From NCBI GenBank assembly GCA_947628185.1, contig CANQYW010000022.1:1-32136 (forward strand): a stretch of DNA of 32,136 nt, given 5' to 3'. Made by a program: the position numbers and the translations under genes. Positions 1-32,136 of the stretch are shown in pieces. The notes beneath the pieces are model-generated. The model did not search any database, was not told where the DNA came from, and was given only the letters and a program-made list of their open reading frames with translations. Position 1 is the stretch's first letter. The number at the start of each line of letters is the position of its first letter. The DNA comes from an uncultured Oscillospiraceae bacterium. Its GTDB lineage: Bacteria > Bacillota > Clostridia > Oscillospirales > Oscillospiraceae.

Positions 1-51
1 AGCCGGTCTTTCAAATTACGGAATAGGGGCGGTTGCCTATCAAATTATTGT

Positions 52-95
52 GTTACTTTACCGCACATGAGCATTATGTGCACGGTTGAAGTAAC
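52..95. repeat. Imperfect palindrome, possible RNA hairpin
   Basis: Outer arms GTTACTT (52-58) and AAGTAAC (89-95) pair. Inside them CCG (61-63) pairs with CGG (83-85), and CACAT (64-68) pairs with ATGTG (76-80). Neither strand shows a U-tract after it, so it is not a clear terminator. It lies downstream of the minus-strand alpha-glucosidase in a gene-free stretch (1-154). No other feature was seen in that stretch apart from the hairpin at 121-153. Confidence 0.4.
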
Positions 96-120
96 TTCTT
101 GAGGGCATAGATACTTATTT

Positions 121-153
121 TGTCGGGCAAAGGCCGAGTGCCTTTGCCCGACA
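121..153 (-). terminator. Perfect 13-bp hairpin directly after alpha-glucosidase stop
   Basis: TGTCGGGCAAAGG (121-133) pairs perfectly with CCTTTGCCCGACA (141-153) around a 7-nt loop. It begins one base past the stop codon of the gene ending at 155. On the minus strand the following bases are A-rich rather than U-rich, so it may be a transcript 3'-end stabiliser or a non-canonical terminator. The structure is certain and the role is inferred. Confidence 0.55.
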
Positions 154-154
154 G

Positions 155-1768
155 TCATAATAGCATCATCTCCGCCTCGTAGGGGCGGAGGGTGCCTGCC
201 CGGGAGGGGTAGTTTGAGATGAGCGTCCTCGCGCCCTCGAACTCCTCCGGGGCGCTCCACTCCACCGTCTCTGGGGTGAAGTTGCAGACCACCAGCAGCC
301 TCTCCCCCGGCACGCCGCGGACGTAGGCGAAGACACGCTCGTCCTCCGGGCACAGCAGAGTGAAGTCACCCTCCGCTATTACCTCGTACTCCTTGCGGAG
401 GGCTATGAGCCTCCTGTAGTAGTGGAAGACGGAGTCCGGGTCCCGGAGAGCCGCCTCCGCGTTTATCTCGGTGTAGTTGGGGTTCACCTTGAACCAGGGC
501 GTCCCGGCGGTGAAACCGGCGTTGGGCCCCGACGTCCACTGCATGGGCGTGCGGGCGTTGTCGCGGCTGCGGGCGTAGACGGACTCCATGACCGCCTCCG
601 GGGACTCACCTGCCGCCACCCGCTCGCGGTACAAGTTCCTCGTCTCTATGTCCTCGTACTCCTCTATCGGCAAACGGATGTTCGTCATGCCGATCTCCTC
701 GCCCTCAAATATGTAGGGCGTGCCCTGGAGGCCGTGGAGGGCGGTGGCCAGCATCTTGGCGGACTCCACCCGGTACCTACCCTCGTCGCCCCAGCGGGAG
801 ACTATGCGGGGCATGTCGTGGTTATTCCAGAAGAGGCTGTTCCAGCCGCAGCCGTGGAGGCCCCGCTGCCAGCGCTCCAGTATCCCCTTTAGTTTCGGCA
901 GCGACAGGCGATCGAGCCGCCACTTGTCCCCGCCCACGCAGTCGGCGAAGTTGTGCTCAAACTGGAATATCATGCTGAGCTCCCGCCCGTCCGGCGAGCT
1001 ATACTCCTTCGCCTCCTCCACATCGGCGCTCCAGGCCTCGCCCACCGTCACGAGCCCCTCCTCCCGGAAGGCGTTGGCGGAGAGCTCCCGGATGTACCGG
1101 TGGAGGTTCTGCCCCCGGGCGGTTATCTTCCTGTCGGGCTCTTTCGCTATGGAGTCTATGACGTCCAGCCTAAAGCCCTCCACGCCCTTCTCCACCCAAA
1201 AGCGGATCATGTCGTAGAGCTCCTCCCGGACCCTCGGGTTGTCCCAGTTTAGGTCGGGCTGTCCCACCGCGAACTGGTGGAAGTAATACTGCCCCAGCTC
1301 CGGCACGTACTCCCAGGCGGAACCGCCGAAACATGCCCGCATGTCGTTGGGGGGCGTCCCGGGGACGCCGTCCCGCCAGACGTAGTAGTCGTGGTAGGGG
1401 TTGTCGCGGCCACGCAGGGCCTCCTTGAACCACCGGTGCTCCCGGGAGGTGTGGTTTAGGACCATGTCCATTATTATGGATATCCCCCGCCTCCGGGCCT
1501 CGCTAATTAGCCGCTCCATGTCCTCCATGGTACCGAAGGGCGGCCAGATGGCCCTGTAGTCTGAGATATCGTACCCGTTGTCCTCCTGTGGGGAGGCGTA
1601 CACCGGCGAGAGCCATATGCCGTCAATACCGAGCTGGGCCAGGTAGTCAAGTTTCCCTATTATGCCCCCCAAGTCCCCCAGGCCGTCGCCGTCGGAGTCC
1701 ATAAAGCTCTTGGGGTACACCTGATATATCACCGCTCTGCGCCACCAGCCGCGCTTTGATTTATCCAT
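155..1768 (-). CDS. GH13 oligo-1,6-glucosidase / alpha-glucosidase
   Basis: 537-aa cytoplasmic glycoside hydrolase family 13 enzyme with no signal peptide. It is full length for the oligo-1,6-glucosidase/DexB group. The four GH13 regions are visible: DMVLNH (101-106), GFRLDV with nucleophile D202, VGEAW with acid/base E244, and FWNNHD with D318. Further on is a TPMQW motif. The residue after the nucleophile is Val. In this subfamily Val there goes with alpha-1,6 (isomaltose-type) specificity, whereas Thr or Ala goes with alpha-1,4. The likely reaction is removal of non-reducing glucose from isomalto-oligosaccharides or limit dextrins. It overlaps the upstream debranching gene by 8 nt, and its strong AAGGAGA ribosome site lies inside that gene's end, so the two are probably co-translated. 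Exact substrate is inferred. A glucan 1,6-alpha-glucosidase or trehalose-type hydrolase is less likely. Confidence 0.93.
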   Translation of the reverse strand: MDKSKRGWWRRAVIYQVYPKSFMDSDGDGLGDLGGIIGKLDYLAQLGIDGIWLSPVYASPQEDNGYDISDYRAIWPPFGTMEDMERLISEARRRGISIIMDMVLNHTSREHRWFKEALRGRDNPYHDYYVWRDGVPGTPPNDMRACFGGSAWEYVPELGQYYFHQFAVGQPDLNWDNPRVREELYDMIRFWVEKGVEGFRLDVIDSIAKEPDRKITARGQNLHRYIRELSANAFREEGLVTVGEAWSADVEEAKEYSSPDGRELSMIFQFEHNFADCVGGDKWRLDRLSLPKLKGILERWQRGLHGCGWNSLFWNNHDMPRIVSRWGDEGRYRVESAKMLATALHGLQGTPYIFEGEEIGMTNIRLPIEEYEDIETRNLYRERVAAGESPEAVMESVYARSRDNARTPMQWTSGPNAGFTAGTPWFKVNPNYTEINAEAALRDPDSVFHYYRRLIALRKEYEVIAEGDFTLLCPEDERVFAYVRGVPGERLLVVCNFTPETVEWSAPEEFEGARTLISNYPSRAGTLRPYEAEMMLL

Positions 1769-3722
1769 TTCCTTTCTCTCCTTCCTCTATTCTCTCCAGC
1801 GCCTCGTAGACCCTTAGTATCTCCCCCACGCTCCATGCCTGGGCGAAACACCCCTTCGGGGGCCCGGGGGCAAGGCCGTCGTAGACCTCCGCTATCTCAC
1901 CGGCGCAGCCCTCCCGGAGAAAACGCCCCATCGGTCCAAGCCTCGCCCGGACCTCGGCGGCGGCCTCCCTGGAGTTCCCCTTCACCTTGAGATATGATAT
2001 GTACCAGGCCCCCAGCGGGAAGGGCCACACCGTGCCCTGGTGGTAGGCCATGTCCCTGTCATACTGACTGCCGCCGTAGGTGGGGTGGAACTGGGGGTCC
2101 TCCGGTGAGAGGGTCCTGAGCCCTATGGGGGTGTAGAGCCGGCGGAAAACCTCCTCCACCACCGACCGCTCCATGTCCGGCGGCAGCATGGTGAAGGGCA
2201 TAGAGACCGCCCAGATCTGGTTGCACCTAAATTGCTCGTCCGCCGCTGTGCCGGAGAGCACGTCCCGCAGGTACCCCCGCTCCCCCATCCAGAACTTCTC
2301 TATAAAGGACCGCCGCACCATCTCCGCGAGGGCGCCGTACTCCTCCCCGGGCTCCCCCGCGAGGGGCGAGAGCGATTCCATTATCTTGAGGGCATTGTAC
2401 CAGTAGGCGTTTATCTCCACAGGTTTCCCGTGGCGGGGCGTGGGGAGGTATCCCTCGATGCGGACGTCCATCCAGGTGACCTGGTCGTCCCCCGCCCCGG
2501 CCCAGATGAGGCCGTCGGAGTCCATATGTATTGAGTGGCGGGTGCCCTCCCTGTAGGCGGCGACTATCCGCCGCAGCGTGGGCAGGGCCTCCCGCACAAA
2601 GTCCTTATCATCCGTGTACTTATAGTAGAGCCAGACGCAGTTAATTAGGAGCAGGGCCGCGTCGGCGGTGTTGTACATGGGCTCCGCGCCGCCCTCCGGG
2701 AATAGGTTTGGGATGAGCCCATCCCGCTCGTGGGCGAGGAACGTTCTCAATATCCCGGCGGCCTCCCGGAAACGCCCGGTGGTGAGGCAGCACCCCGGCA
2801 GGGCTATCATGGTGTCCCGGCCCCAGTCGGCAAAGAATGGGTAGCCCGCTATCATGGTCATGCCCCCGGCGGCCCCGCGGGCGGCGATAAAGGCGTCCGC
2901 CGCCCGGGCGAGCTCCCGGCCCACCGGGTCCCGGAGGGGCGAGCTCTCAAGGAGACTCTTTCTCCGCGCCGCGGCCTCCAAAATTATCTCCCCGGCGCTG
3001 CGGGTCACGGGGGTATCTGAGAAAACTATCTCCAGACGTCCCCGGCTCCGGCCCTCCACCCTCAATGACACCCGGAAGAGCCGTACCCCCGCGCCCTCCG
3101 GCGACCGGCCGTCCACATCATCATCGGCGTAGTAAAGGCGCTCCGTCTCCCGCCGAATGGGCTCAAGCTCTCCGCTCGCTGAGAAGTACATCCTAAGTCC
3201 CCCGCCCATGACGCGCCGCTCACCCAGCGCAAGTTCAAGCTCCGGCCCTGTTTGGGGCGCCGCGCCCTTGGGGGAGAACTGCATGATGGGGGTAATAATT
3301 AGCGTCACCGGGGAATCAGATTTGTTCTCCACCTCGTAGACCACCGCCGCGGTGTTGGCGCCGTGCTCCATGGCGCAGGTCCTCACGACCCGCGCTGAGC
3401 CCAGATCATACCGCCACTCCGGCAGGTCCCCCATCTTGAAACTCTCAAGCCTCCGCCAGCCCTCCTCCGGGGCGGCTCCCCCGGCGAAGGACTGGGAGGA
3501 TATGAACTCCCGCGCCCCGCCGGAAACCACCTCCTCCGAGAGGCGGTGCAGTAGGCAGTACCTCCTACTGGGGCTCTCCGCCGAAATGAGCAGCCCCTGG
3601 TCACAGCGGGTCACGGAGAATATATCGGAGGTGGACATATATCCCCCCAGGCCGTTTGTGAGGAGCCAGCAGTTCCCCTCATGGGTTGGCGTGAGCTCCG
3701 CGCCGGAATATTCAAATTCCAT
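1761..3722 (-). CDS. Amylo-alpha-1,6-glucosidase (glycogen debranching enzyme)
   Basis: 653-aa protein with the two-domain layout of bacterial/archaeal glycogen debranching enzymes. An N-terminal beta-rich domain carries NGLGGY (23-28). The C-terminal (alpha/alpha)6 barrel carries WGRDTMIALPG (300-310) and, further on, a GDDQVTWMD segment. The Asp residues in these two motifs are probable catalytic or substrate-binding residues. It should hydrolyse alpha-1,6 branch points of glycogen or limit dextrin in the cytoplasm. The downstream, overlapping GH13 gene would then process released oligosaccharides, so the pair reads as an alpha-glucan utilisation unit. The start has a GGAGGT ribosome site 5 nt upstream. 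A terminator-like hairpin lies just before it, so it either has its own promoter or depends on read-through from proS. The family is clear and the natural substrate is inferred. Confidence 0.92.
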   Translation of the reverse strand: MEFEYSGAELTPTHEGNCWLLTNGLGGYMSTSDIFSVTRCDQGLLISAESPSRRYCLLHRLSEEVVSGGAREFISSQSFAGGAAPEEGWRRLESFKMGDLPEWRYDLGSARVVRTCAMEHGANTAAVVYEVENKSDSPVTLIITPIMQFSPKGAAPQTGPELELALGERRVMGGGLRMYFSASGELEPIRRETERLYYADDDVDGRSPEGAGVRLFRVSLRVEGRSRGRLEIVFSDTPVTRSAGEIILEAAARRKSLLESSPLRDPVGRELARAADAFIAARGAAGGMTMIAGYPFFADWGRDTMIALPGCCLTTGRFREAAGILRTFLAHERDGLIPNLFPEGGAEPMYNTADAALLLINCVWLYYKYTDDKDFVREALPTLRRIVAAYREGTRHSIHMDSDGLIWAGAGDDQVTWMDVRIEGYLPTPRHGKPVEINAYWYNALKIMESLSPLAGEPGEEYGALAEMVRRSFIEKFWMGERGYLRDVLSGTAADEQFRCNQIWAVSMPFTMLPPDMERSVVEEVFRRLYTPIGLRTLSPEDPQFHPTYGGSQYDRDMAYHQGTVWPFPLGAWYISYLKVKGNSREAAAEVRARLGPMGRFLREGCAGEIAEVYDGLAPGPPKGCFAQAWSVGEILRVYEALERIEEGEKGNG

Positions 3723-28006: not shown

Positions 28007-29128
28007 TTACTCCAAAATTCCCCGTGCTTTTAATACCTCAATGTTTAATGCATCCTCTATGTCATTTTTCAAGGTGCGCATATTATTATAGAAGCCCTGG
28101 CGAATTGCGTTTGTAAAGAAGTTTAATACCACATTTTCCTGTATAAGCTCTTGATCATCACTACTTAGTTGTGAATAAAGAGTTTTGTAATTCCTTGCCG
28201 CGATCTTAATTTTGTCTTCAATGCTGATCTCATCAAATTTTATTACTTTGGAGAATCGCGAGTAAATTGGAGCACCAAGACATTTTTCTGCTTCTTCTAC
28301 CGACGAAAAATTGCTTGTACAAATTATAATACAACTCTCAACATTTACAGAGTAATTTTTATCAACGAACACGCCCTCATCAAACATCTGATAAAACGCA
28401 TTATAAAAAGAGCGGTCAACTTTATCAAATTCGTCCAAAAGAATTACATTTGATTCTCTCCGAATTAGTTCTCTGGCAAAACTGTCTTCTCCATGCTCTC
28501 CCCCAAAAAAATATTTATATGCCTCTCCAGTTTGTTGCATCGAAAACTGTAAACGCAGCATTTCTCCACCAAATTTTGAATTTATAAACTTAGCTGTTTC
28601 CGTTTTGCCAACACCAGAACCACCCAAAAACAATATGGCGATTGGTTTCTTCCTTTTTGGGTTTACGAGAGAGTATAACGTGGGTAGCAGTTTACGCAAA
28701 ACCTTTGGCTGCCCTATAACTTCATTCTCATAATCTGACGCAATTTCTTTGAGCATTTGCAGATTAAGAGAAGGTCGATTAGAGAAAGTCTCAGTAATAA
28801 TGCTGGAGTATGTTCTTTTTACATCTTCATAAAGCTTTTTAGGCGGATTACTTAAGAATAGGTTTTTAATATGAATACGTGGATTTTTAAAAATATTGTT
28901 AGATGCTCCAAGAATGGCCCACTCTTTTATCCCACCATAATCATCAGTATATATTATTAGGTTATCAATTTCTAAAGGTTCATTGTATCGTTTTTCTGCT
29001 CCTTCAATCTCAATTATTACTTTGCTAATGTGCCCGAGTACGTTGCCAATTGTGTAGTATGATTCTATACTTTCTGTTAATTTTTTGAAGTCAGAATCAG
29101 ATCCAAAATGAATAATAACTTTTTCCAT
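28007..29128 (-). CDS. AAA+ ATPase, ClpB-D2-like, in putative defence operon
   Basis: 373-aa protein. Residues 1-130 are an unrecognised N-terminal domain. From VIGQ (137-140) it follows the layout of the second AAA+ module of ClpA/ClpB: Walker A GGSGVGKT (169-176), Walker B VILLDEFD (228-235), sensor 1 TSN (271-273), arginine finger R291 in SRFS, and sensor 2 R351 in NMRTLKND. An aromatic stretch (AYKYFFGG, 203-210) occupies the place of the ClpB pore loop. All ATPase residues are present, so an active ring ATPase is likely. There is no ClpP-binding loop or first AAA module that I can see. One 60-nt sample (28081-28140) is 33% GC, far below the core genes. It starts 1 nt after the DUF6414-like stop. 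A chaperone-like partner of the two upstream genes is inferred. Its precise role is unknown. Confidence 0.8.
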   Translation of the reverse strand: MEKVIIHFGSDSDFKKLTESIESYYTIGNVLGHISKVIIEIEGAEKRYNEPLEIDNLIIYTDDYGGIKEWAILGASNNIFKNPRIHIKNLFLSNPPKKLYEDVKRTYSSIITETFSNRPSLNLQMLKEIASDYENEVIGQPKVLRKLLPTLYSLVNPKRKKPIAILFLGGSGVGKTETAKFINSKFGGEMLRLQFSMQQTGEAYKYFFGGEHGEDSFARELIRRESNVILLDEFDKVDRSFYNAFYQMFDEGVFVDKNYSVNVESCIIICTSNFSSVEEAEKCLGAPIYSRFSKVIKFDEISIEDKIKIAARNYKTLYSQLSSDDQELIQENVVLNFFTNAIRQGFYNNMRTLKNDIEDALNIEVLKARGILE

Positions 29129-29129
29129 A

Positions 29130-29948
29130 TCAATCTGCTATCCCCGCAACAACAACGTCATAAACATCAATTTCCAACGGTTCTCCATTTTCGCTTGCTA
29201 CAGTATCATATTCAATTCTATTCTTGGTGGCGACCCCAAATTGAAATTCGCTTGTTAAATCCAATTTCTTCTTATCTATCTTGCCTACATTTACAGCATA
29301 TAAAGACAACTGCATTTTAGGGATATCTGACATAGTATAATTATTTCTAAATGCTGTACTACTAAATCTAAAAATAGTTTCATTTCCGTCAAGAATGGCA
29401 ATAAACTCATAATAACCACGTCCACGTGAAATAGCAGTTTCAATTTTAGATACGTCTATTGTAAACATCTCTCCATTCTGTCCATTAATTGGGACATTTC
29501 CCTTAATCATTGTAAAAAGAGGGGCCATTAACATCATGTATGAAAATGAATTTGCCTGTGGAAACAGTTTAACTTTTTCAAACTGCTTAATTGCGAGATG
29601 TCGTTTGTTTTCTTCTTTTTTCTTTTTTGAGTCGGAATCTATTAGTTCTACAAAATCAGCAAGTAAAGTGTTCTCTAAAATGGTCTTAGCAATCTTTTCT
29701 TTCTTTGCTTTAACATCGGCTTGACCATCTAATGACACCTCTGCGCCAATTCCCGTCAACGCCTTAAATAATGCTGGAAGTCCTTTACCCTTTGCGTTAG
29801 CGCTAACTTCGGCTTGGGCTCCTGCTCCAACATCACCGGTAACATCAGTAATAAACTCTGTTGTTTTCTTTAATTCTCCGCCTGACGTAATCTGCATATA
29901 GTCAGCCGCTGTTCCCTCGTCAAAATAAATTACTTTAACAAATTTCAT
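29130..29948 (-). CDS. DUF6414-like protein of unknown function
   Basis: 272-aa protein. The N-terminus (VIYFDEGTAADYMQI, 6-20) resembles what I recall of the DUF6414 family, which has no established function. Residues about 33-80 are rich in Ala, Gly, Ser and Val, with alternating polar and small residues, resembling an amphipathic beta-hairpin around a short helical stretch. A Lys-rich segment follows (108-116). The middle has SYMMLMAPLFTMIKG (136-150), and the C-terminal half looks like a beta-rich globular domain. No catalytic motif is visible and no signal peptide. AT-rich like its downstream neighbour. It is placed between a restriction helicase-nuclease (13-nt gap) and an AAA+ ATPase (1-nt gap), so it is likely an adaptor, sensor or effector of the same system. 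The family name needs a profile search. Confidence 0.65.
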   Translation of the reverse strand: MKFVKVIYFDEGTAADYMQITSGGELKKTTEFITDVTGDVGAGAQAEVSANAKGKGLPALFKALTGIGAEVSLDGQADVKAKKEKIAKTILENTLLADFVELIDSDSKKKKEENKRHLAIKQFEKVKLFPQANSFSYMMLMAPLFTMIKGNVPINGQNGEMFTIDVSKIETAISRGRGYYEFIAILDGNETIFRFSSTAFRNNYTMSDIPKMQLSLYAVNVGKIDKKKLDLTSEFQFGVATKNRIEYDTVASENGEPLEIDVYDVVVAGIAD

Positions 29949-29961
29949 CGTTCTATTCCCT

Positions 29962-32136
29962 CTATAGTTCTTTCACAATCTCCACAAGCTGCTTCATCCC
30001 AACCGCTCCCGGCAGCGGTTCGGCATCGTCAGCGAACACCATGTAATACCTGAACTGGCTCCCCGCCGCGTTGCGCCATGCCTGACCGAGGGCGATTTTA
30101 TCGCGGCTGTCATCGTTTTTCAGATGCTCGCCTTTTGTCTCGACAAGAATGATCTTCCCGCTGTTCGTCATCAGCATAATGTCCGGGTAGTGATTGATAA
30201 AGCCGTTGATGCAGAAACCGTGCCTTGCAATGTTCCGATGCCACCAGCGGATGTTGGGCAGGGCGGTTAGTTCCATCACCAAGTCCTGCTCAAGCTGATT
30301 CATATCTTCCTCTGCCTGATAGAGCGACCCGCCAATCATATCCGTGTTGTCCATCGGGTGAATGCACACGGGTAGGCGGTACGATGGGCGGCAGACGATG
30401 CGCTCCGTCTCCAGCCAGCGGGCAAAGGTTTCCCTGTAATGCTCCGTCAAAAGCGATTCAATCTTTGCCTTGATCTTTGCGGCGTATCTGAGAGGTGCTT
30501 TCTCCATAGCTGCAAGCTGGACTTTGCCCATCGTCCCCACAATCAAATCAATATAGGCCCTCAGCTCGGCGGCGTCCACCGTGTTCATCTTGTTGAGCTG
30601 TGAGAACATCATATCCTTGCACTGACGCACACGACTTTCCGGTGGCAGGCTGTTGAAATATTCCTTGAAATACCGTTGGTCGGCGCTGGACATCTTGAAC
30701 ACCTTCGGCAAACCGCCTTCGCTTTGCCGGACATCTACCTTGGCAATCTCATCGTCCGCAGAACCGAAGTCAATATCATATGCCTTGCCCTTCAGCGTAA
30801 AGCCCTCCGCAAGCTGTTCCTTTTCCAAAAACTCCAGCGTTCCTTCAGTAAAAAGAGACTCCGGCACCACTTGGAAAAACTGCGGAATCATAAGTTTATC
30901 CACATCTTCCCGGAACTGAGGTTGGACATAGAATGTTATCACCCTGTCACGCACCTCCCACGGAAGTGTGTTGATATAGGAATCGTTCTCCACGCCTTTT
31001 CGTGCGTCGTCGTAGTCCTGCCCCGCTTTTTCCGCTTCTGTCAGCATATTTTCCGCCCTTTGATGCGTTTCGGATGTTTCGCTCCGCGCACGACGCAGCT
31101 CCAGTTCCTTCCCAATTGCCTCGCCGTCTATATAATCGAAACTGTCCACATCTTGCATTTCCGGCTGCTGGATTTCAAGCTGTTCTGGCACATGAGGAAC
31201 GATTGGTTTCGGGACGGTCGAAGTGGAGAGGCGGTAGTCCTTATCGCTGAATCCGGCGTTGTTGAGCCCATGAATGATTCGGCGAACTGTCTCGTCAAAA
31301 TCGTTAGAGGATGTCAACACATAGGACATATTCAGTGCTGGCTGGCTGTGTCGAACAGTGTGCGGCAGCCGGAGGATACGCCCCAGAATCTGCTCCACAT
31401 CCACTTGGCTCGTCTTGTTGGCAAGAGACGCCAATATGTAGGCAAACGGGCAGTCCCAGCCCTCTTTGAGTGCGTTGACGGTGATAATATACCGTACCTG
31501 ACAGTCCGGCGACATCAGATCAACATTTTTCAGCTCGTTCACATCGGCAGTGCGAATCGCGATCTGCTCCGCAGAGATTCCGGCGTCAATCAACTTTTCC
31601 CGCAGTTTTTCAAATGTCGTCGCGTCCTCTTTGCCCTTTGGCTGAGCCTGAAACAGGGCGATAGGGCGGATGTACCGTCCCGTCTTTTTCCGTTCCGCGA
31701 CGGCGATTTCCTCTAACTTGTTCCGCAGATCGATGGCGTCGGTCAGAACCTCCGTCTGACTGTCCCGGTTATAGACGATCACGGGTAGCTTTACCATGTT
31801 TTCATTCTTGAGCTGCACAGCGTCCACATAGGAGATGATATTGCTCTCCTTTTTCGGTGTGGCGGTCAGATCAAGCACAAAGCAGGGATTGAAATTCGCC
31901 AGCATCTCGATACTCAACTCAGACCGTGCGTGGTGGCTCTCGTCCACTATCACGAGGGGCGACAACTGATTGATGATCTGAAACAGCGCGGACTCGTCCG
32001 CTTTCTCGATGGGATTTTCCGGCTTGCCCAGCACCTTTGCAAAATTCGCAAGATTGCTGTTTTCCTGATAGGCTTTCAGCCCCTCTTTACCGCGCCCACG
32101 GAATGAATCGTAAGACAGCACCATGATCGAAAGCTG
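29962..32136 (-). CDS. Type III restriction-like helicase-nuclease (Res), 5' truncated by window edge
   Basis: The C-terminal 724 residues are visible. The frame stays open to the window edge, so the N-terminus with Walker A is missing. Numbered from the Met at 32124: DEAH-box motif VIVDESHHARS (D61), motif III DLTATP, and helicase motif VI region QILGRILRLP following an ALKEGWDCPFAYIL segment. The C-terminus carries a PD-(D/E)XK nuclease pattern, YPD (D648) then VETK (E662, K664), as in Res subunits of type III restriction enzymes. A type III system would need a Mod methyltransferase, which may lie beyond the right edge. GC is intermediate (52% in 31021-31080), between the AT-rich genes downstream and the core genome. 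First visible gene of a three-gene operon with the DUF6414-like and AAA+ genes. Restriction or anti-phage function is inferred. Confidence 0.88.
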   Translation of the reverse strand, partial: QLSIMVLSYDSFRGRGKEGLKAYQENSNLANFAKVLGKPENPIEKADESALFQIINQLSPLVIVDESHHARSELSIEMLANFNPCFVLDLTATPKKESNIISYVDAVQLKNENMVKLPVIVYNRDSQTEVLTDAIDLRNKLEEIAVAERKKTGRYIRPIALFQAQPKGKEDATTFEKLREKLIDAGISAEQIAIRTADVNELKNVDLMSPDCQVRYIITVNALKEGWDCPFAYILASLANKTSQVDVEQILGRILRLPHTVRHSQPALNMSYVLTSSNDFDETVRRIIHGLNNAGFSDKDYRLSTSTVPKPIVPHVPEQLEIQQPEMQDVDSFDYIDGEAIGKELELRRARSETSETHQRAENMLTEAEKAGQDYDDARKGVENDSYINTLPWEVRDRVITFYVQPQFREDVDKLMIPQFFQVVPESLFTEGTLEFLEKEQLAEGFTLKGKAYDIDFGSADDEIAKVDVRQSEGGLPKVFKMSSADQRYFKEYFNSLPPESRVRQCKDMMFSQLNKMNTVDAAELRAYIDLIVGTMGKVQLAAMEKAPLRYAAKIKAKIESLLTEHYRETFARWLETERIVCRPSYRLPVCIHPMDNTDMIGGSLYQAEEDMNQLEQDLVMELTALPNIRWWHRNIARHGFCINGFINHYPDIMLMTNSGKIILVETKGEHLKNDDSRDKIALGQAWRNAAGSQFRYYMVFADDAEPLPGAVGMKQLVEIVKEL

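Follow-up and report, generated by a model that had tools for sequence, protein, structure and literature searches.

A Dodola gene pair behind a probable type III restriction-modification operon in an uncultured Oscillospiraceae bacterium

We examined a three-gene block at the right-hand end of the window, a stretch of 32,136 nucleotides (nt) that makes up the entire contig CANQYW010000022.1 (here C22) of an uncultured Oscillospiraceae bacterium (source genome 1.8 Mb, 40 contigs, 83% complete). Sequence profiles identify the two small genes of the block as the Dodola pair, DolA and DolB (together DolAB). The pair lies directly behind the res gene of a probable type III restriction-modification (R-M) operon, and the locus is one instance of a repeated pattern in which related DolAB copies exchange their R-M partners. 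The block is built of ordinary parts in an informative arrangement. Its features are as follows.

28007..29128, minus strand: dolB, Clp-type AAA+ ATPase, 373 amino acids (aa) (PADLOC DolB, AAA_2, predicted structure, conserved ATPase residues)
29130..29948, minus strand: dolA, DUF6414 protein, 272 aa (PF19952, PADLOC DolA, predicted structure)
29949..29961, minus strand: gap of 13 nt from the stop codon of res to the start of dolA, too short for a separate promoter (from coordinates of the open reading frames, ORFs)
29962..32136, minus strand: type III Res, C-terminal 724 residues, with the helicase and the nuclease end (PADLOC REase_III, ResIII)
31925..32136, minus strand: part of C22 that overlaps bases 1-212 of contig C19 at 91%

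The Dodola pair and its type III partner

The ORF coordinates confirmed the three genes and the two gaps described in the first-pass annotation: res and dolA are separated by 13 nt, dolA and dolB by 1 nt. All three ORFs are on the minus strand; res is open at its 5' end, where the contig stops. Profile searches against Pfam and PADLOC matched all three proteins to known families. The middle protein matched PF19952 (DUF6414; E 1.1e-31) and PADLOC DolA (E 1.2e-69), and the ATPase matched AAA_2 and PADLOC DolB (E 1.3e-115). The PADLOC models were matched over nearly their whole length, and, as in Dodola, a DolA-family gene adjoins in the same order a DolB gene with a ClpB-like AAA+ domain. The first-pass annotation had named no system with this exact set of three genes; the two small ones together are Dodola. 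Dodola is known as a two-gene system; here, in contrast, the pair is found 13 nt behind res, in a clade that is repeatedly found behind R-M genes.

The predicted structure of DolB (pLDDT 91.5) gave fold matches to the D2 domains of ClpA, Hsp104 and ClpB, and the protein looks like a protein-threading ring. Its ATPase residues, which the first-pass annotation had found complete, were invariant in 79/79 DolB relatives, and an aromatic loop was conserved among them. Unlike the Clp/Hsp100 unfoldases (ClpA, ClpB, ClpC and Hsp104), DolB has a single ring domain and an N-terminal part of its own. Docking to ClpP is not indicated, because the window DolB contains no [LIVM]GF tripeptide (13/79 relatives have one somewhere). 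The predicted structure of DolA (pLDDT 74.3) gave weak fold matches and hints at an OB-like domain. Neither Pfam nor a PDB sequence search revealed an effector or toxin domain in DolA, and Pfam recognised no anticodon nuclease or other toxin domain in either protein. DolA adjoined DolB in 80 of 83 Dodola loci; in the remaining three (L064, L072 and L108), the DolB start lies no more than 600 bases from a contig end. Because of this adjacency, the earlier suggestion of an AAA ring working on the middle protein remains reasonable.

The helicase was rightly described as type III-like: Res matched PADLOC REase_III (E 6.2e-62) and the Pfam family ResIII, and the motifs DExH, TATP, QxxGR and PD...ETK were read by eye from the translation. 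It has the helicase and nuclease parts of a type III Res, with the Walker A part lying on C19 and the nuclease motif being the one read by eye. Full-length relatives have open frames of approximately 871-884 aa. The first-pass annotation had pointed to the right of position 32136 for a Mod gene. C22 ends there; however, a type III Mod was found on the overlapping contig C19 of the same genome, whose bases 1-212 match 31925-32136 of the window (212 bases, 91%) in the orientation expected for a contig overlap. C19 (locus L003) carries the N-terminus of a Res with a Walker A motif (216 aa, 3-650, minus strand) and, upstream of it, a Mod of 540 aa (666-2288, minus strand; MTase_III model, E 4.4e-206).

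We searched for relatives of the window Res in 200 genomes of the same taxonomic family and found eight (48-75% identity). Mod and Res stood side by side in the same order in six of these loci (L210, L211, L212, L214, L216 and L217); approximately 0.9 kb separated the two matches in L213, and L215 was cut before Res. No DolA or DolB match was found at any of the eight, with the downstream flank in view in seven (L217 was cut). Models of both Mod and Res were matched, and the two would stand in the order seen in relatives; in contrast to the seven relatives, DolAB follows here, and the putative Mod-Res pair is split over two contigs. Because C19 carries the Res start and Mod, and because relatives show the same Mod-Res order, the operon order is likely Mod-Res-DolA-DolB, with an inferred join across the two contigs.

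The GC content was 0.346 for DolB, 0.363 for DolA, 0.525 for Res, 0.484 for the C19 Mod and 0.60-0.62 for three core genes; GC at third codon positions was 0.30, 0.28, 0.66, 0.56 and 0.82-0.88, respectively. The shift from the core genes noted in the first-pass annotation is therefore real, whereas its sharpest step lies inside the proposed operon, between Res and DolA, and not at the edge of the block.

Partners of related Dodola pairs

To place the pair among its relatives, we analyzed 83 Dodola loci: the best 80 of 186 relatives on genome contigs, and three on viral contigs. Neighbours were assigned for 79 loci, after removal of three in which DolA was out of view (L064, L072 and L108) and of L056, which lacked a clean DolA ORF. 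Phage records gave one match and plasmid records 17, all below 60% identity. DolB of a close group (n = 12) was 51-80% identical to that of the window, and all others were at most 45% identical. In a DolB tree made by a quick method, which leaves out L104 and L113, the window and the close group formed a clade of 13 rows (SH-aLRT 100), none of them from viral contigs. In a search for DUF6414 relatives, only the window, L015 and L018 among the fetched loci matched both DolA and DolB by tblastn; other DUF6414 proteins without such matches were not counted as Dodola. Four DUF6414 genes without a DolB match in the family of the window (L004, L005, L007 and L008) each have an ORF of 466-489 aa as upstream neighbour and possibly belong to another DUF6414 system.

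R-M genes lay directly upstream of DolAB in 7/13 members of the close clade, window included, or 7/11 of those that could be judged (L036 and L037 start at or just before DolA). The clearest partner swap was between the window and L031, which carries the DolAB closest to that of the window (DolA 84% and DolB 80% protein identity). In L031, a type III Mod (EcoP15I-like) and Res are followed by an AbiJ-like gene and then by DolAB. The DolAB DNA of the two loci was 75.6% identical over 1923 nt, with the match beginning at the DolA start codon. The partners, in contrast, were unrelated type III systems: Res was 31% identical over 85 aa only, and Mod 33% over 400 aa.

The other partners in the clade were of different kinds. 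In L039, DolA starts at the end of an MmeI-type IIG gene. In L035, a search identified a C5 methyltransferase and a Bpu10I-type nuclease upstream of DolAB, and L038 was assigned the same partners from matching ORF lengths and positions only. L041 has an Eco57I-like methyltransferase and a BsuBI/PstI-type nuclease, and L040 has two adenine methyltransferases. No R-M gene was seen upstream in L032, where an IS66 transposase stands, or in L033, L034 and L042.

Among the 67 loci outside the close group, 40 had a same-strand upstream gene within 150 nt. We scanned these 40 together with four at 150-276 nt (L043, L048, L095 and L109). Among the 25 of 37 Pfam families listed, the members included MmeI methyltransferase (7), Lon_C (5), BrxL ATPase (4), HsdS (4) and AlwI (3), and single representatives of HaeIII, C5 methyltransferase, type ISP, GmrSD and N6_N4 methyltransferase. 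From these counts and an HsdR upstream in L109, approximately 25/44 close upstream genes are parts of R-M or BREX (bacteriophage exclusion) systems. Families were assigned to loci by BLAST clusters and ten single scans, and two of the four HsdS (L053 and L054) were assigned indirectly. Other upstream genes encoded Fic (L058), PIN (L055) and KAP (L043) proteins, and the core gene rlmD stood upstream in L045 and, by cluster, in L046 and L050. Across all relatives, the partners included type I, II, IIG, ISP, III and IV R-M systems and BREX, and by our labels 33/79 loci (34/80 with the window) were linked to one of these, L069 and L084 by motifs alone. In L088 (4817-9054), the order was type III Mod, DolA, DolB and the start of a Res with an in-frame stop codon near the contig end.

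The linked or unlinked state changed at least 20 times on the DolB tree, and the class of partner at least 16 times among linked rows; neither count was compared with shuffled labels. Five rows cut at contig ends were excluded, and L056 was counted as unlinked though its upstream side was not judged.

The linkage was confined largely to one side. We scored a methyltransferase motif in chains of same-strand genes with gaps of up to 200 nt. The motif occurred in the upstream chain of 27/79 loci and the downstream chain of 0/79 (31 have any downstream chain); among distant ORFs (over 4 kb away and 180 aa or longer), the background was 9/340. A methyltransferase-motif ORF lay 501 nt downstream in L055. 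In a Pfam scan of 68 genes downstream of DolB, no R-M family was among the 25 of 83 families listed, and these 25 cover all families with at least two members. Two of these 68 genes encode ArdA-family antirestriction proteins (alignment A5).

HamA, Shedu and Abi_2 loci served as controls. Within upstream chains of at most three genes, the motif was found in 20/58 Dodola loci (those with at least 5 kb upstream; 24 over all 80 loci) compared with 2/46 controls (Abi_2 1/24, HamA/Shedu 1/22; Fisher p 1.8e-4, which ignores relatedness). On any strand within four genes, the numbers were 21/58 and 3/46. The controls filled 22/25 HamA/Shedu and 25/35 Abi_2 places, those skipped being mainly contig-end or broken, and L198 gave no ORF. 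For most of them 4-5 kb of upstream sequence could be seen, and for L156 and L160 less. The 21 scanned upstream genes of HamA/Shedu included one HsdR, one N6_N4 methyltransferase and one Mrr (25 of 31 families listed).

Some loci had further neighbours. On an enterococcal plasmid (L027:7269-9855), only 12 nt separate the end of a TIR-domain gene from dolA, suggesting that defence genes of other kinds may likewise precede the cassette. Genes for rlmD-like rRNA methyltransferases flank Dodola or R-M-Dodola loci in L039, L045, L046, L050 and L085, a possible integration hotspot. Two ORFs beside methyltransferase genes, of 691 aa (L069:7074-9149) and 695 aa (L040:287-2374), had no Pfam match and are candidates for unknown restriction enzymes.

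A composite operon and competing explanations

Gene content, gene order, the cassette pattern, partner swapping and the conserved ATPase residues were observed directly. To account for them we propose, with about an even chance of being right, a composite operon in which DolAB is an interchangeable second-line module behind Mod-Res. The type III system would mark host DNA and cut unmarked invading DNA. DolA and DolB, encoded 13 nt past res and probably on the same transcript, would form a second line against invaders that escape restriction. Related DolAB copies would have been attached repeatedly to operons of various R-M and BREX systems, in most cases at the 3' end; attachment to so many unrelated DNA-cutting systems suggests a plug-in second line of defence. 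DolB may form a ring that uses ATP to thread or remodel protein via its conserved aromatic loop, and its main client would be DolA or a target bound by DolA. DolA, in turn, may recognise nucleic acid or a phage product via its OB-like part and perform or trigger the block. The alternative in the first-pass annotation of a type III R-M system with two accessory genes fits this proposal. More tentatively, and with a rather small chance of being correct, DolAB could be a general guard of DNA-modification-based immunity, a portable AAA+ cassette on type I, II, IIG, ISP, III, IV and BREX operons. It would then respond to some signal shared by all these systems when they fail, for instance phage DNA to which the OB-like part of DolA binds, instead of to any single restriction enzyme.

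Several results weigh against the composite operon. More than half of the Dodola loci were unlinked to R-M or BREX, and the best 80 of 186 relatives are biased to Bacillota and to the DolB of the window. R-M-like genes were also found downstream, namely the Res start in L088, a Mod-like fragment in L090 and a GmrSD-like gene in L065. No upstream methyltransferase motif was present in two Dodola loci from a phylum sample (L161 and L162), and among the 17 matching plasmid records, the seven whose regions were viewed all lacked a same-strand R-M gene immediately upstream. Further, the overlap of C22 and C19 is 91% and not 100%, so it is not an exact assembly overlap and two strains may be mixed. 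We looked for a bridge by synteny in 20 genomes of the same genus besides the source, using an SDR gene on the C22 side and a VanW protein gene on the C19 side. The two were on different contigs in 17/17 genomes with close matches to both, and 11 stretches around SDR contained no VanW-side gene. All of these genomes being drafts, this result argues mildly against the adjacency of C22 and C19. The join thus rests on the 212-base overlap and the Mod-Res order of relatives.

DolAB might instead sense that the neighbouring restriction enzyme is blocked or failing, for example by a phage anti-restriction protein, and stop the infected cell. We retain this explanation, which we consider improbable, because PrrC, embedded in the type IC R-M locus of EcoprrI, works in that way. 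PrrC and PARIS are known guardians of R-M, extra defence genes tied to an R-M locus (PMC12707154), and the window and its relatives show the same kind of linkage. The recurrence of the linkage with unrelated R-M and BREX systems, the insertion of DolAB between Mod and the Res start in L088, and the slower growth caused by chromosomal Dodola (PMC12322248) would all suit a guard. However, whereas PrrC sits in a type IC locus, the DolAB partners span several R-M types and BREX and share no single protein, so that it is difficult to see how one sensor could recognise all the restriction enzymes themselves. Further, many Dodola loci lack R-M, plasmid-cloned Dodola protects without a supplied cognate R-M partner (PMC12322248), and no toxin domain was recognised in DolA. 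The large unlinked fraction would be expected if DolAB and R-M were independent neighbours gathered by defence islands or a mobile element, with the 3' placement borrowing a promoter. R-M systems commonly neighbour defence genes (PMC10924106), and the rlmD-like flanks of several loci resemble an integration hotspot. Nevertheless, the excess of upstream motifs over HamA, Shedu and Abi_2 (20/58 against 2/46), the strong side bias (27/79 against 0/79) and an R-M/Dodola preference that holds outside defence islands (PMC10924106) make mere neighbourhood an unlikely account.

A Clp-like DolB could also dismantle restriction enzymes to spare self DNA, with DolA as adaptor, by analogy with ClpXP, which degrades HsdR (PMC12707154). 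The Clp-like fold, the conserved aromatic loop and the many R-M types linked are consistent with such control of restriction. We nevertheless regard it as very unlikely, given that DolAB alone defends against phages (PMC12322248), that unrelated nucleases would be improbable clients, and that R-M systems without DolAB exist, including the eight relatives of the window Res. Finally, the first-pass annotation had offered an undescribed stand-alone system, a dedicated machine of Res, DolA and DolB, which the spacings of 13 and 1 nt might suggest. We rejected this trio, and such a machine is scarcely credible: the small pair is already named by its PADLOC Dodola matches, neither part of the window Res had a match at E 1e-4 in any of the 83 Dodola loci, and the eight Res relatives lack DolA and DolB matches. 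Moreover, a Mod is at hand on C19, and the base composition breaks between Res and DolA.

Implications for Dodola

Dodola was reported to protect broadly against phages (PMC12322248) and to have minimal effect in the assays of PMC11514479, and its mechanism is listed as unknown in Table 1 of PMC12322248. Outside defence islands, R-M genes have a tendency to be found together with Dodola, according to section 9 of PMC10924106. In the open-licence literature on Dodola and DolA/DolB, we recognised no paper describing the pattern at the level of operons, and for DUF6414 no paper was listed. Since colocalisation is already in print, the value added here is the operon-level, partner-swapping pattern. 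That DolAB is attached again and again, and mostly on one side, to R-M and BREX operons that are unrelated to each other provides a testable lead on the mechanism of Dodola, and nature supplies matched pairs for it: closely related DolAB copies that accompany different R-M systems, and a single Res family of which some members have DolAB and others lack it. Dodola may thus act as a second stage of restriction, beyond its role as an independent system.

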